In this document: positions 23,845 to 40,950 of the stretch, one piece after another
Layout: each line of letters starts with the position of its first letter
Numbering within the stretch: the stretch's first letter is position 1
Assembly (NCBI GenBank): GCA_018971945.1
Contig: JAGWZH010000013.1
Coordinates: 1 to 47,827, forward strand
Reading direction: 5' to 3'
Source of the DNA: Alphaproteobacteria bacterium
Lineage (GTDB): Bacteria; Pseudomonadota; Alphaproteobacteria; Caulobacterales; Aquidulcibacteraceae
DNA length: 47,827 nucleotides
Translations under genes and position numbers: made by a program
The notes under the pieces: model-generated
What the model saw: the letters and a program-made list of their open reading frames with translations, nothing else
Database searches by the model: none
What the model was told of the DNA's origin: nothing

Positions 23845-26800
23845 TCAGGTCCCCATCTTTTTGCTCCCCATCTTTTTGCTCCCCATCTTTTTTGTCCCCA
23901 TTTGTTTCGTCCCCATCTTCCGGGAAGCCGTTTCGGGCGCCGTCTGCTTCGTCCCGATGGTCTTTGTCCCCGAAATCTCTGACCCCGAAGTCTTTGAGCC
24001 CGAAGTCGTTGTCCCCGAAGTCGTTGTCCCCGAGGTCTTTATCGCCGTCGTCTTCGTCCCTGTCTTTCTGGTCCCCGTATGCGTTTTGCGCGTCTCCGCC
24101 GCCGCAGGAGGGGAACGCCGCGCCATATGTTTCTCCAGGGTTTGGGCGAGGTAACGTCCCGTCCAGCTGCCGGCCACGGCGGCCACCTGTTCAGGCGTAC
24201 CTTCCGCCACAAGCCGCCCGCCGCCATCGCCTCCTTCGGGTCCCAGATCCACGATCCAGTCCGCCGTTTTTATCACGTCGAGATTATGCTCGATGACAAC
24301 GACCGTATTGCCGTTGTCGACAAGTTCGTGGAGCACTTCCAAAAGCTTGCGCGTGTCTTCGAAGTGCAGCCCGGTCGTTGGCTCGTCGAGAATATAGAGC
24401 GTCCGTCCTGTCGCCCGGCGGGAGAGTTCCTTTGACAGCTTCACCCGCTGCGCTTCCCCACCCGACAGCGTCGTCGCCTGTTGGCCGACCTTGATATAGC
24501 CCAAGCCAACCCGCGACAGGGTCTCCATCTTGTCCCTGATCGAGCCGACGGCCTGGAACAGAACGCCCGCTTCAGCGACTGTCATGTCAAGCACGTCTGC
24601 GATGGATTTGCCGCGATAGGCGATCTCCAAGGTTTCGCGGTTATAGCGTTTGCCTTTGCAGACATCGCACGTGACGTAGACATCGGGCAGAAAATGCATC
24701 TCGATCTTGATGACGCCGTCGCCCTGGCATGCCTCGCAGCGGCCGCCCTTGACGTTGAATGAGAACCGGCCGGGTCCGTATCCCCTCGCTTTGGCTTCCG
24801 GCAGGCCCGCGAACCAATCGCGAATGGGGGTGAACGCGCCGGTATAGGTCGCGGGGTTTGACCGGGGCGTCCGGCCAATAGGGCTTTGGTCAATGTCGAT
24901 GACCTTATCGAAATGCTCCAGGCCTTCAATGGCGTCGTGGGCGGCGGGCGGATCCATGGCGCCGTTGAGCTTCCGCGCGGCCGCCTTATAGAGCGTCTCC
25001 ACAGTGAAGGTCGATTTCCCGCCTCCGGAGACGCCGGTGATGCAGGTCAACGCTCCCACGGGGATCTGGGCGTCCACATTTTGCAGATTATTCCCCCGGG
25101 CGCCGCGCACGCCCAGGAACTGGCCTTGGCGGGCTTTGCGGCGGCGGATCGGCACTTCGATTTCACGCCTCCCGGTCAGGTATTGGCCGGTCAGGCTTTG
25201 CGCGTGGGCCATCACGACCGCGGGAGGGCCCTGGGCGATAATCTCTCCGCCATGGACGCCGGCGGCGGGTCCCATGTCGATGACATGATCGGCGCTGAGA
25301 ATGGCTTCTTCGTCGTGTTCCACCACCAGAACGCTGTTGCCGAGGTCCCGCAGGCGCTTCAGGGTGTCCAGAAGCCGGGTGTTATCGCGTTGGTGCAGCC
25401 CGATCGAGGGCTCGTCGAGGACATAGAGCACGCCAGTCAGGCCCGAGCCGATTTGGGAGGCCAGCCGGATGCGTTGGCTCTCCCCTCCAGACAATGTGCC
25501 CGAAGCCCTGTTCAGGGTAAGATATTCAAGGCCCACATCCACCAGGAAGCGAAGCCGATCATTGATCTCCTTCAAAACCCGAGCAGCGATCTCTTTGTCC
25601 TTTCGACCGAGGGCCGCTTCGAGAGCATGGAACCAGCGGCGGGCCTCGCGGATAGGGAGGCTGCTCGCGTCGGCAATGTCTGACCCGGCCACCCGCACCG
25701 CGAGCGCCTCTGGTTTCAAGCGCTTGCCGCTGCAGACAGGGCAGGGGGCGCTCGATTGGTATTCCTCCAATTGCTGGCGGGACCATTCACTGTCGGTCTC
25801 TTTATAGCGGCGTTCGAGATTGGGCAGCACGCCTTCAAAGGGCTTGGTTGTCTCAAACCGGCGGACCCCATCGTCATAGACGAAGTGGATCTTCTCCTTG
25901 GCGCCGAATAAGACCACATTTTGCACCGCCTCGGGCAGTTTGCGCCAGGGCGTGTGGGCGTCTACGCCCATGTGCCTTGCGATGGCCATAAGGGTCTGGG
26001 TGTAGAGGGGGGACTGCCCCTTGGCCCATGGCGCGATGACCCCGCCCATCAAAGACAGAGACTTGTCAGGGACGACGAGATCAGGATCGAAGCGCCGCTG
26101 GCTGCCGAGCCCGTCGCAGGTGGAGCAGGCGCCGGCGGGGTTGTTGAATGAAAAGAGCCGCGGTTCGATTTCGGAGATTGTAAAGCCTGAAACAGGGCAA
26201 GCGAAGCGTGATGAAAACAGGATCCGATCGCCCGCGGCTTTGTGGGCTCCATCGGCCAGGGTCACGGCGTCTGCGAACTCCAGGACCGCGATCCCGTCGG
26301 CCAGCCTGAGCGCCGCCTCGAGACTGTCGGCGAGGCGCGTTTCGAGCCCGTCGCGGACGGCGATCCGGTCGACTACCACATCGATATCGTGTTTCAATTT
26401 CTTGTCGAGCTTGGGAGGCTCCTCGAGCTCGTAATAGTCGCCGTCGATCTTGGCGCGCTGATAGCCCTTGCGCAGAAAATCCGCCAATTCCTTGCGGTAT
26501 TCGCCTTTCCGATCCCGAACCACAGGCGCCAGGATATAGGCGCGGGTCCCTTGGGGAAGCGCTGCGATCTGATCGACCATTTGGCTGACCTGCATCGCCT
26601 GGATCGGCAGCCCCGTCGCCGGGGAATAGGGGACGCCGATCCGCGCCCACAAAAGACGCATATAATCGTAGATTTCGGTGACTGTGCCGACGGTGGAGCG
26701 GGGATTGCGGCTGGTGGTTTTCTGCTCGATCGAAATCGCCGGAGACAGCCCCTCGATCGAGTCCATATCGGGCTTTTGCATGAGTTCAAGAAATTGCCGC

Positions 26801-26994
26801 GCATAGGCGGAAAGGCTCTCCACATAGCGCCGCTGCCCTTCGGCGTAGATCGTATCGAAGGCCAGGGATGATTTCCCCGACCCCGACAGACCAGTGATCA
26901 CCACCAATTGCCCCCGAGGGATGTCCACATTGATGTTCTTGAGATTATGTTCGCGGGCGCCGCGCACGCGGATATGGGAGAGACCGTCTGTCAT
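23845..26994 (-). CDS. uvrA: excinuclease ABC subunit A, with repetitive C-terminal tail
   Basis: 1049-residue damage-recognition ATPase of nucleotide excision repair. Both ABC modules are complete. Walker A motifs are [14 protein letters not shown] and [11 protein letters not shown]; signature motifs are [19 protein letters not shown] and [20 protein letters not shown]. Zinc-binding cysteines appear in the [16 protein letters not shown] and [16 protein letters not shown] blocks. The normal family end is near residue 955. The last about 90 residues are a lysine/threonine/glycine tail made of five-residue repeats (K-T-S-G-T, later K-K-M-G-S). It is divergent from ssb, and a LexA box between them indicates SOS control. 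Core function is certain; the tail is unusual. Confidence 0.96.
23848..24060. repeat. 15-bp degenerate tandem repeats encoding the UvrA tail
   Basis: On the plus strand the unit is about GTCCCCATCTTTTTG, nearly perfect in the first three to five copies (23848-23920) and more diverged to about 24,060. Read on the minus strand it gives K-M-G-T-K / K-M-G-S-K pentapeptides after a T-T-S-G-T type array. The frame is preserved because the unit is 15 bp. Copies nearest the stop codon are the most alike, which suggests recent expansion at the 3' end. Confidence 0.85.
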
Positions 26995-27091
26995 GGGCGT
27001 TAACTAGGGCTGGAGCGTCCGGGAAGAAAGCGTCGTGGCCACATTTCCTCTCCGCTGTGAGGCGCGCTAGGCTCGTCCGAATCGCGGAAGA

Positions 27092-27106
27092 GAACAAGGC
27101 GTGAAC
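27092..27106. promoter_or_regulatory. LexA (SOS) box between uvrA and ssb
   Basis: GAAC-AAGGCGT-GAAC is an exact match to the direct-repeat LexA operator of Alphaproteobacteria (GAAC-N7-GAAC, equal to GTTC-N7-GTTC on the other strand). It lies in the 180-bp divergent gap, 98 bp before uvrA and 69 bp before ssb. It could repress both genes until DNA damage. Confidence 0.85.
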
Positions 27107-27174
27107 ATAATCGCGCCGCAATTCCTCCCCAAGAGACGTCACATCGGCAGCCCCGGAAAGCTTAGGAGAGCGTC

Positions 27175-27654
27175 ATGGCCGGAAGCGTGAACAAGGTGAT
27201 CCTCGTTGGCAATCTTGGGAAAGATCCCGAAGTGCGCCGTTTGAACAACGGCGATCCGGTCGTGAACCTGTCGGTGGCCACGTCGGAGACATGGCGCGAC
27301 AAGATGAGCGGCGAGAGAAAAGAGAAGACCGAGTGGCACCGCGTGGTCATCTTCAACGACCAGCTCGCAAAAGTCGCCGAGCAGTATCTGCGCAAGGGAT
27401 CCAAAGTCTATTTAGAGGGCCAGCTGCAGACCAGGAAATATGAGCAAAACGGGGTGGAAAAATACTCCACGGAAGTGGTTTTGCAGAAATACCGCGGCGA
27501 ACTGACGATGCTTGACGGCAAGAGCGAGGGCGGCGGCGAGCGTGCGAGCTTCAGCGGCGATGACGGCGGGTATGGTGGCGGCGGACGTCGTCAGGTGGCG
27601 GAAGGTCCTCGCGAAAGTTTCAGCCAGGATATGGACGACGAGATCCCGTTCTAA
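27175..27654 (+). CDS. ssb: single-stranded DNA-binding protein
   Basis: 159-residue SSB that coats single-stranded DNA in replication, repair and recombination. The N-terminal OB fold starts [20 protein letters not shown] and includes [20 protein letters not shown] and [19 protein letters not shown] glycine-rich linker follows. The protein ends in the acidic D-M-D-D-E-I-P-F tip that binds partner proteins. ATG 27175 follows TTAGGAGAG. It is divergent from uvrA, as in many bacteria, with a shared LexA box in the gap. Confidence 0.97.
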
Positions 27655-38506: not shown

Positions 38507-40950
38507 GAGGAGCCTTTCGGGTTGGCGCGGCGGGTCGGCGACGCGCTCAAGGGGTCCGCCGGCCATGGGTGTTTGGGATACCGCCCCCTGAGATCGGCGC
38601 GAACGGCGGCGTAGGAGCCGCGCCAGAACCCCGGGAGGTCGCGGGTGGTCTGCACTGGGCGGTTCGCTGGAGAGAGGAGCAGAAGCAAGAGCGGCGCCCG
38701 TCCTCCCGCCACAGACGGATGCTGATCAAGGCCAAACAGCTCCTGCAGGCGGATCGCGAGGGCAGGTCCGTTTTCAGCAATGTAATCAATAGCATGATCG
38801 CCACCCGCCGGACTCTCAAACCTGAGGGGCGCTTCCTTCTGCAGCCGTCCGCGCTGTCGGTGATCGAGGAGCGCGGCGACCGCTTGCGCGAGGCGACCCT
38901 CAAGGGCGTTGAGCCGGGTAGAGCCGTTCAAGGCCGGCGCGAGCCATTCATCCGAGCGCGCCAGCAACGCCGCGTCGGAGAGGTCTGGCCAAGCGTCCTC
39001 ACCCTCAAGCCCCCGCAGCAAGGCGACCCGCGCCTGCAGGGTCTTGAGGGCAGGATCGTCTGGCAGAAGCGCCAGGCCATGGACGCGCACCGCCTCCAAA
39101 AGCGCGGCGGCCAATTGATCTTGCGGCGCCGCCTCCAGCGGCCCTTCCGTCAGAACAAGACGTCCGAACCGTGTCTGCCGGCGGGCCCGTACGGCGCGAT
39201 GTTCGGGATGGAAGCGGATATCGACCCGCTGCTCGATCCGGTCTGGGAAACGGGTTTGCAGATCAGCAAGCGTGAGGGGCGCGGCCAAGCGAACCAGGGC
39301 GCGATCCGCTGCTCCGGTGACCTCTCCCACCGCAAGATATGGCTCTACCGACAGCGCGCTTTCGGCCTCAACCCGCACGATCCGTCCATTGGCGAGTTGG
39401 AACAAGCCATCGCCCCGGGCTTTCGCCACCCGGTCGGGATAAGCCGACGCCAGGAGCGGGCCCAGCGCCTGAGGAGCGAGGTCTTGGCCTTTCCCGCCAG
39501 CGTCCAGCGCGATGCGTGCGGCGAGAGCCCTGGCGGCTCTGGCCCTTGGGCTTGGCTCTCGGCAGAGGCGTTCCACCCGGGACGCGGCGTCCAAGACGCC
39601 CCGCGCAAGCGTGTCTTCGGTAATGGCCAAAGCCAGGAGCGCCGCCGTCCAGCGCTCATGGTCAGGGGCGCTGAGCACCATGTGAGCGAGCCGCGGCGGC
39701 AAAGGCAAGGCGCTCAGCCGGGCGCCATGGTCGGTGATGCGGCCGTCTGCAGCAAGGGCGTGCATCGCTTGCAGGGCCGCCGCCGCCTGCGCCCAGGCGG
39801 CTTTTGGGGGGGGATCGAGCCAAGTGAGGCCCATGGGATCGATCACGCCCCACGCGGCGAGATCCAACACGAGGCCGGACAGGTCAGCGTTCAAAAGGTC
39901 TGGCGGGTCAAATTCAGGCCGCGACCGTGTTTCCCCCTCGCTCCAGAGGCGGTAACACACGCCCGGCTCCAGCCGGCCCGCCCGTCCCTTGCGCTGCTCC
40001 AGGCTTGATTGGCTGGCCCGGACGGTCACAAGGCGTGTCACCCCGACCTCAGATTCGTAGCGCGCGCGTCGCGACAGGCCGGCGTCGACGACCACCCGGA
40101 CGCCTTCGATCGTGAGGCTGGTTTCTGCAATAGCCGACGCGATCACGACTTTCCGCATTCCCGGGGAAGCGGGACGGATGGCGGCGTCTTGCGCCGCGGG
40201 GTCCATCGCGCCGTAGAGCGTGTGAAGCGCGACACCGGCGGGGAGCCCTTCCTGCAAGATTTGGGCGGCGCGAAGGATCTCCGCCGCTCCTGGGAGAAAG
40301 GCGAGAACGCTTCCCGGTTCAGAGCGCAGAGCCTCTTTGACCGCGCCGGCGACCTCGGCCGAGGGGTCGGCGTTCGGCGTCGCCGGAGGCCTGTGAACCA
40401 CCCTCACGGGGAACATCCGACCCTGGCTCTCGACCACCGGGCAATCTCCCAGCAAGCCGGAGATCCGCGCAGCGTCGAGCGTGGCTGACATCACCAGGAG
40501 CCTCAGATCGTCCCGCAGGCCCTGCTGGGCGTCTCGCGCCAACGCCAAGGCGAGATCGCCCTCGAGGCTGCGTTCGTGAAATTCGTCGAAAAGGACGGCG
40601 GCGATCCCGCCGAGGGCGGGATCCGCCAGGATGAGGCGGGTGAAGACGCCTTCGGTGAGAACCTCGATCTGTGTCTGCGGGCCGACTCTCGTTTCAAGCC
40701 TTACCCTGTAGCCGACGGTCGCCCCGATCGGTTCGCCGAGGGTCGAAGCCATCCGCGCCGCCGCCGCCCTGGCCGCGATCCTTCGCGGCGCCAGCACCAA
40801 AAGCTTCCTATCCTTGCGCCAAGGTTCATCCAAAAGCGCAAGGGGCGCGCGCGTCGTCTTGCCTGCCCCAGGCGGCGCCACCAGAACGGCCTCCGAACGC
40901 GCCCGAAGGGCGGCGCGCAGGGCAGGCAGGACCTCTTCGATAGGCAACAT
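38503..40950 (-). CDS. hrpB: ATP-dependent helicase HrpB
   Basis: 815-residue DEAH-like superfamily 2 helicase of unclear role in bacteria. Helicase motifs run in order: motif I VAPPGAGKTTRAPL (Lys31), motif II LFDEFHERSLEGDLAL, motif III VMSATLDAARI, motif V IASAIAETSLTIEGVRVVVD, and motif VI QRKGRAGRLEPGVCYRLW. The C-terminal HrpB-specific domain follows, with F-W-R-G-S-Y-A and R-Y-P-K-H-P-W-P near the end. Length matches the family. It starts at ATG 40950. It is the first gene of the two-gene unit with the PLP dehydratase. Confidence 0.95.
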   Translation of the reverse strand: MLPIEEVLPALRAALRARSEAVLVAPPGAGKTTRAPLALLDEPWRKDRKLLVLAPRRIAARAAAARMASTLGEPIGATVGYRVRLETRVGPQTQIEVLTEGVFTRLILADPALGGIAAVLFDEFHERSLEGDLALALARDAQQGLRDDLRLLVMSATLDAARISGLLGDCPVVESQGRMFPVRVVHRPPATPNADPSAEVAGAVKEALRSEPGSVLAFLPGAAEILRAAQILQEGLPAGVALHTLYGAMDPAAQDAAIRPASPGMRKVVIASAIAETSLTIEGVRVVVDAGLSRRARYESEVGVTRLVTVRASQSSLEQRKGRAGRLEPGVCYRLWSEGETRSRPEFDPPDLLNADLSGLVLDLAAWGVIDPMGLTWLDPPPKAAWAQAAAALQAMHALAADGRITDHGARLSALPLPPRLAHMVLSAPDHERWTAALLALAITEDTLARGVLDAASRVERLCREPSPRARAARALAARIALDAGGKGQDLAPQALGPLLASAYPDRVAKARGDGLFQLANGRIVRVEAESALSVEPYLAVGEVTGAADRALVRLAAPLTLADLQTRFPDRIEQRVDIRFHPEHRAVRARRQTRFGRLVLTEGPLEAAPQDQLAAALLEAVRVHGLALLPDDPALKTLQARVALLRGLEGEDAWPDLSDAALLARSDEWLAPALNGSTRLNALEGRLAQAVAALLDHRQRGRLQKEAPLRFESPAGGDHAIDYIAENGPALAIRLQELFGLDQHPSVAGGRAPLLLLLLSPANRPVQTTRDLPGFWRGSYAAVRADLRGRYPKHPWPADPLSASPTRRANPKGSS

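Follow-up and report, generated by a model that had tools for sequence, protein, structure and literature searches.

The divergent uvrA-ssb promoter region

The window, meaning the whole 47,827-nucleotide stretch of contig JAGWZH010000013.1 that was analyzed (from an alphaproteobacterium of the family Aquidulcibacteraceae, order Caulobacterales), carries uvrA and ssb as divergent neighbors. The gap between them contains a predicted LexA box and, on its uvrA side, a CcrM methylation site:

23845-26994, minus strand: uvrA, excinuclease ABC subunit A, 1049 aa (NF001503, 1566 bits against a cut-off of 1147; TIGR00630, 1440 bits against a cut-off of 729.8)
26995-27174, no strand: divergent uvrA/ssb intergenic region, 180 bp (from the gene calls)
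27079-27083, no strand: GAATC, CcrM methylation site (GANTC), the only GANTC in the gap, on the uvrA side of the box, which its start precedes by 13 bp, with 8 bp clear between them
27092-27106, plus strand: predicted LexA box GAACAAGGCGTGAAC, GAAC-N7-GAAC, reading toward ssb (from the sequence, its conservation and the LexA of the genome)
27175-27654, plus strand: ssb, single-stranded DNA-binding protein, 159 aa (TIGR00621, 156.7 bits against a cut-off of 53.95)

The box had been proposed in a first-pass annotation of this DNA, and a sequence check confirmed both its position and its strand. As claimed there, it is the only exact GAAC-N7-GAAC in the gap, and the genes on either side are indeed two divergent DNA-repair genes, each scoring above the cut-offs of curated models. 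Situated in the promoter region of a DNA-damage gene, the box is separated by 97 bp from the start of uvrA and by 68 bp from that of ssb. A simple promoter scan of positions 26950-27220 returned no consensus sigma-70-like promoter, and we therefore claim -35 and -10 elements for neither gene in the window; in the relatives described below, such hexamers were judged by eye only. Separately, the C-terminal tail of UvrA (window positions 23845-24100) is long, repetitive and rich in Lys, Thr, Gly and Ser, the protein having 1049 aa against 943 in the model.

The annotation had also identified the direct repeat with the alphaproteobacterial LexA operator, and this identification holds, GAAC-N7-GAAC being GTTC-N7-GTTC on the other strand. 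The main papers on the alphaproteobacterial SOS regulon are reportedly Erill 2004 and da Rocha 2008. The operator of Caulobacter and others is the same repeat in the same class of bacteria, and the cognate LexA is present here. In the available excerpts, uvrA is a known LexA target in Caulobacter (PMC12700426, PMC3323433), where it is an SOS gene induced late and the LexA motif is given as GTTCN7GTTC (PMC12700426). Nothing essential sets our site apart from that operator; it is a new instance, with a GANTC alongside.

Consistent with the annotation's premise of a LexA of the alphaproteobacterial type, the genome that contains the window (3.4 Mb) encodes a single LexA above the TIGR00498 equivalog cut-off (168.6 bits against 110.95); it has both the LexA DNA-binding and the S24 peptidase domains. 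The promoters of recA and lexA had been suggested as places to look for the same motif, and it is present at both, as GAACGCCCATAGAAC upstream of lexA (C82:11866-11880) and GAACACAAGAGGAAC upstream of recA (C163:2692-2706). An exact box also immediately precedes ruvB (L009). Among the relatives fetched, 29/30 have a box at lexA and 21/30 at recA. The orientation of the box is fixed for each gene or promoter: at the relatives' loci (L349-L408), GAAC points toward lexA in 30/33 cases and GTTC toward recA in 20/23.

Two further places in this genome carry LexA-type matches. GAACAAAAAAAGAAC, a strong match at L065:1504-1518 (C226:29853-29867), lies between the gene for a WYL-domain protein and that for a divergent ARPP-1 protein, which makes this pair a candidate pair of SOS targets. 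A Fur-family gene is preceded, at a distance of about 190-220 bp, by two matches 31 bp apart (L041:1499-1544, contig C139).

Conservation of the box

The bare motif is weak evidence for an operator, as it is enriched neither in the window nor in the genome. The window contains two exact matches against 0.99 expected from shuffles (at least two occurred in 21 of 100 shuffles), and the genome contains 67, most of them within open frames, against 178 for the reversed control pattern. We therefore discarded motif counts as evidence. At the genome's density, the chance of one match in a 180-bp gap is about 0.3%. The second match in the window, GAACGGCCTCCGAAC at 40884-40898, lies within a long open frame, fits the spacer matrix badly and is probably a chance occurrence.

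The spacer of the uvrA/ssb box, AAGGCGT, is also a poor fit to a matrix built from the relatives' boxes, ranking 11th of the 66 matches of its own genome. The genome's own lexA box fits this matrix even worse and falls outside the top 25, which makes the matrix of little use as a score of box quality.

To locate the same promoter in relatives, we searched with SSB and then fetched the surrounding stretches. A locus was called linked when the fetched stretch included the start of uvrA, and the box was sought within 400 bp upstream of ssb. Leaving out L208 (a second ssb of G051) and G003 (a distant ssb match only) gives 60 genomes of the window's order, and the named contigs of relatives that had been inspected early were kept out of all counts. 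The sample from outside the order covers 107 of 382 genomes, comprising 27 loci from the class search and 80 picked by hand from its ranked list; near-duplicates and some contig-edge cases were skipped in the picking, and this sample therefore leans toward SSBs similar to the query.

Divergent uvrA and ssb were found in 42 of the 60 genomes of the order. Counting the window, 41 of the 42 carry an exact box and only G002 does not; first-order Markov resamples gave 0.39 on average and never more than 3. All 48 boxes in the linked gaps of the order read GAAC toward ssb. Outside the order, exact boxes occur in 22/82 linked genomes (Markov mean 0.45), of which 14 have the orientation seen in the order and 8 the opposite one; in another 31 linked genomes the best match is a box with one mismatch, where shuffles predict 9.7.

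It is this conservation, rather than the density of the motif, that constitutes the real evidence for the box, and it suggests that the gap almost certainly holds a LexA operator of the alphaproteobacterial direct-repeat type. That the box is a chance match, as the counts for genome and window taken on their own would allow, is refuted by its presence in 41 of the 42 linked genomes, which leaves this explanation highly improbable.

A probable common operator for two genes

The first-pass annotation had further suggested that the single site could co-regulate both genes. This suggestion is backed by the 18 genomes of the order in which uvrA does not lie close upstream of ssb. All 18 were checked by tblastn, an earlier motif-based pass having missed L321-L323; in some of them (G026, G037, G041, G057, G023, G030, G048, G056 and G060) the genes are merely further apart on one contig. 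An exact box lies within 400 bp of the separated uvrA in 16/18, always with GTTC toward uvrA, and at the separated ssb in 11/18, always with GAAC toward ssb, the remaining 7 lacking one. These are the orientations expected from the shared site, and they support one site serving both genes. In the six f3 genomes, where the two genes are on different contigs, the uvrA box is retained in 6/6 and the ssb box in 5/6. Both genes thus appear to be under selection to keep a box, more weakly in the case of ssb.

The g11 relatives have an additional gene between uvrA and ssb that reads with uvrA; it is of the LigB family (PF02900), as judged from L073 alone (2128-2904). The gaps of these relatives contain two boxes, both in the stretch adjoining ssb and each with a GANTC upstream.

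The annotation had likened the arrangement to the shared uvrA-ssb operator of E. coli with a different sequence, and the comparison stands up. According to excerpts of PMC3323433 and PMC9505508, uvrA and ssb of E. coli and Vibrio likewise form a divergent pair with one common LexA site; the operator there is the palindrome CTGT-N8-ACAG, whereas here it is the direct repeat GAAC-N7-GAAC. In Vibrio, an insertion parted the two genes and each kept a site, and the same argument as ours is made in the available text of PMC3323433.

A more restricted reading is that the operator is real and in effect regulates mainly uvrA, with ssb expressed constitutively from its own promoter and hardly responding, as has long been argued for E. 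coli. It would explain why separated genomes keep the box at uvrA more often than at ssb, and it agrees with the alpha- and betaproteobacterial SOS core in the excerpt of PMC3323433, which names uvrA and not ssb. Against it, the ssb box persists in five of the six f3 genomes mentioned above, the box in the window lies closer to ssb than to uvrA, and the induction of E. coli ssb is LexA-dependent in the available part of PMC9505508. We consider this reading unlikely and regard the operator as likely to regulate both uvrA and ssb.

The presence of LexA, the boxes at lexA and recA, the conservation at 41 of 42 linked loci and the boxes at separated genes together point to an ordinary alphaproteobacterial operator serving both genes. 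Our overall explanation, to which we assign a probability of roughly 0.9, is that the direct-repeat LexA operator at 27092-27106 represses both divergent promoters and releases them on DNA damage. LexA bound at this site would repress uvrA and ssb, and damage would act through RecA-stimulated self-cleavage of LexA to free both promoters; since they would be released together, excision repair and single-strand protection would rise jointly. We infer the binding, the repression, the induction and the response of both genes in this species from sequence comparison. Speaking against the explanation are the poor spacer fit, the empty promoter scan, the presence of the box in only 22/82 linked genomes outside the order, and the 7/18 separated ssb genes without one. 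In Brucella, as far as the excerpt of PMC6813329 goes, uvrA is further induced on lexA overexpression, the opposite of simple repression.

The site is a true and ordinary example of a known operator type, accompanied by one worthwhile additional observation, namely the adjoining GANTC.

A CcrM methylation site beside the box

The GANTC beside the box was not mentioned in the first-pass annotation and is an addition to it. In the window, the minus strand of CGAATCG matches YGAKTCK, the extended GcrA motif of PMC7987155. Among the 41 linked box loci of the order, a GANTC start precedes the box by 9-30 bp, toward uvrA, in 27 (13/15 genera), and the mirrored position on the ssb side has one in 1/41. 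This -30 to -9 interval was set after the first relatives had been inspected; the loci outside the order, examined after the lead had been noted, provide an independent check, with 13/22 loci and 6/14 genera positive and 2/22 in the mirror. The GANTC starts actually observed precede the box by 9 to 27 bp, in most cases by 13 to 19, which leaves 4 to 22 bp between the two elements and no overlap. The density of GANTC elsewhere in these gaps predicts a rate of 8%. When 16 palindromic control motifs were compared, GANTC alone stood out, with 40/63 against 12/63 for the next.

Other SOS genes served as controls. In the order, a GANTC adjoins 3/21 recA boxes and 3/29 lexA boxes, and in the window's own genome 3/67 matches, one of which is the window's. 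These figures rule out GANTC as a part of every alphaproteobacterial SOS box. By Fisher's test, 27/41 against 6/50 loci gives p = 9e-8 and 13/15 against 3/24 genera gives p = 6e-6; both values are too small, as related genomes are treated as independent, and the genus counts are more trustworthy. The GANTC keeps its side and distance in f35 although the box there is reversed, which speaks against its belonging to an extended LexA site.

Where the genes are separated, a GANTC adjoins the uvrA box in 8/16 cases against 2/11 for the ssb box, and on this basis the box-adjacent GANTC probably belongs to the uvrA promoter. The fit to YGAKTCK is found in 22/41 box-adjacent GANTCs, compared with 55/163 elsewhere upstream and 139/512 in the remainder of the loci. 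About 30-50 bp upstream of ssb, f2, f4, f5 and g6 relatives have a further class of GANTC, distinct from the box-adjacent one, which may be a CcrM site belonging to the ssb promoter itself.

The genome has the genes that such a site would call for. GcrA scores 180 bits with PF07750, above the cut-off, and a CcrM-like enzyme has N6_N4_Mtase and RAMA domains, both above their cut-offs; this enzyme reaches 603 bits with the CcrM model NF050803 over nearly the whole model length, below the cut-off of 830. Two of the 22 linked box loci outside the order (G161 and G163) are in genomes without a GcrA match, and neither has an adjacent GANTC; absence of GcrA was listed directly for 20 of the 113 genomes with no match and was otherwise deduced from a genome not being among the 276 listed. 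The window resembles CcrM/GcrA-controlled promoters of Caulobacterales in having a GANTC in a promoter region, with GcrA and a CcrM-like gene in the genome, and differs from them in that its GANTC has a LexA box as a partner, their spacing being fairly constant, and that no -35 and -10 elements are placed.

Excerpts of published work connect these genes with cell-cycle control. The promoter of Caulobacter ssb contains a GANTC, and the gene is down in delta-ccrM, though listed outside the GcrA regulon (Table 1 of PMC3973325); in Brucella, uvrA and lexA are among the targets identified by GcrA ChIP-seq (PMC6813329). Start sites that have a GANTC between -35 and -10 become active 40-60 min into the Caulobacter cycle (PMC4287350), and MucR and CtrA are able to shield GANTC from methylation (PMC5172544).

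The statistical association leaves an even chance, in our estimate, that the GANTC gives functional CcrM/GcrA input, which would act mainly on uvrA. The conserved GANTC may with similar probability be a by-product, of shared ancestry or of GANTC-rich promoters of replication genes, with no regulatory effect on uvrA or ssb. Such an origin fits the higher density of GANTC in these gaps generally (3.9 per kb against 1.8 per kb in the surrounding DNA), the kinship of the genomes, whose counts are not independent, and the groups that have no box-adjacent GANTC, namely f5 (0/3) and all genomes of genus g6 in f1, most of which have a GANTC near the ssb start instead. There is also a precedent, in that the conserved GANTC at the SOS genes ruvC and imuA is put down to overlap with the LexA motif, with no GcrA effect, in the available text of PMC7987155. 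At uvrA-ssb, by contrast, the GANTC and the box are separate, and the mostly GANTC-free recA and lexA boxes, the comparison with control motifs and the unmoved GANTC beside the reversed box of f35 all weigh against a by-product.

Joint control of the uvrA-ssb switch by SOS and the cell cycle is plausible from these comparisons. More tentatively, and with somewhat less than even odds, the uvrA/ssb gap of many Alphaproteobacteria may be one composite element of GANTC and LexA box that links the response to damage with control by the cell cycle. GcrA would read the CcrM methylation and thereby set the transcription of uvrA, and perhaps of ssb, through the replication cycle, and bound LexA would protect the adjacent GANTC from being methylated. 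If so, an SOS event would leave a methylation mark until the next replication fork passes. The idea of a composite is partly anticipated in print; a description of the GANTC/LexA pair at uvrA-ssb was not found in searches of the open PubMed Central literature.

These results put the shared uvrA-ssb SOS operator of this lineage of Alphaproteobacteria, whose binding code is a different one, on a firm footing, and they indicate that the genes, once separated, usually each have a box of their own, as reported for Vibrio. With the CcrM site adjoining the box, it can be tested directly and cheaply whether one promoter is the target of both DNA methylation and the SOS repressor.
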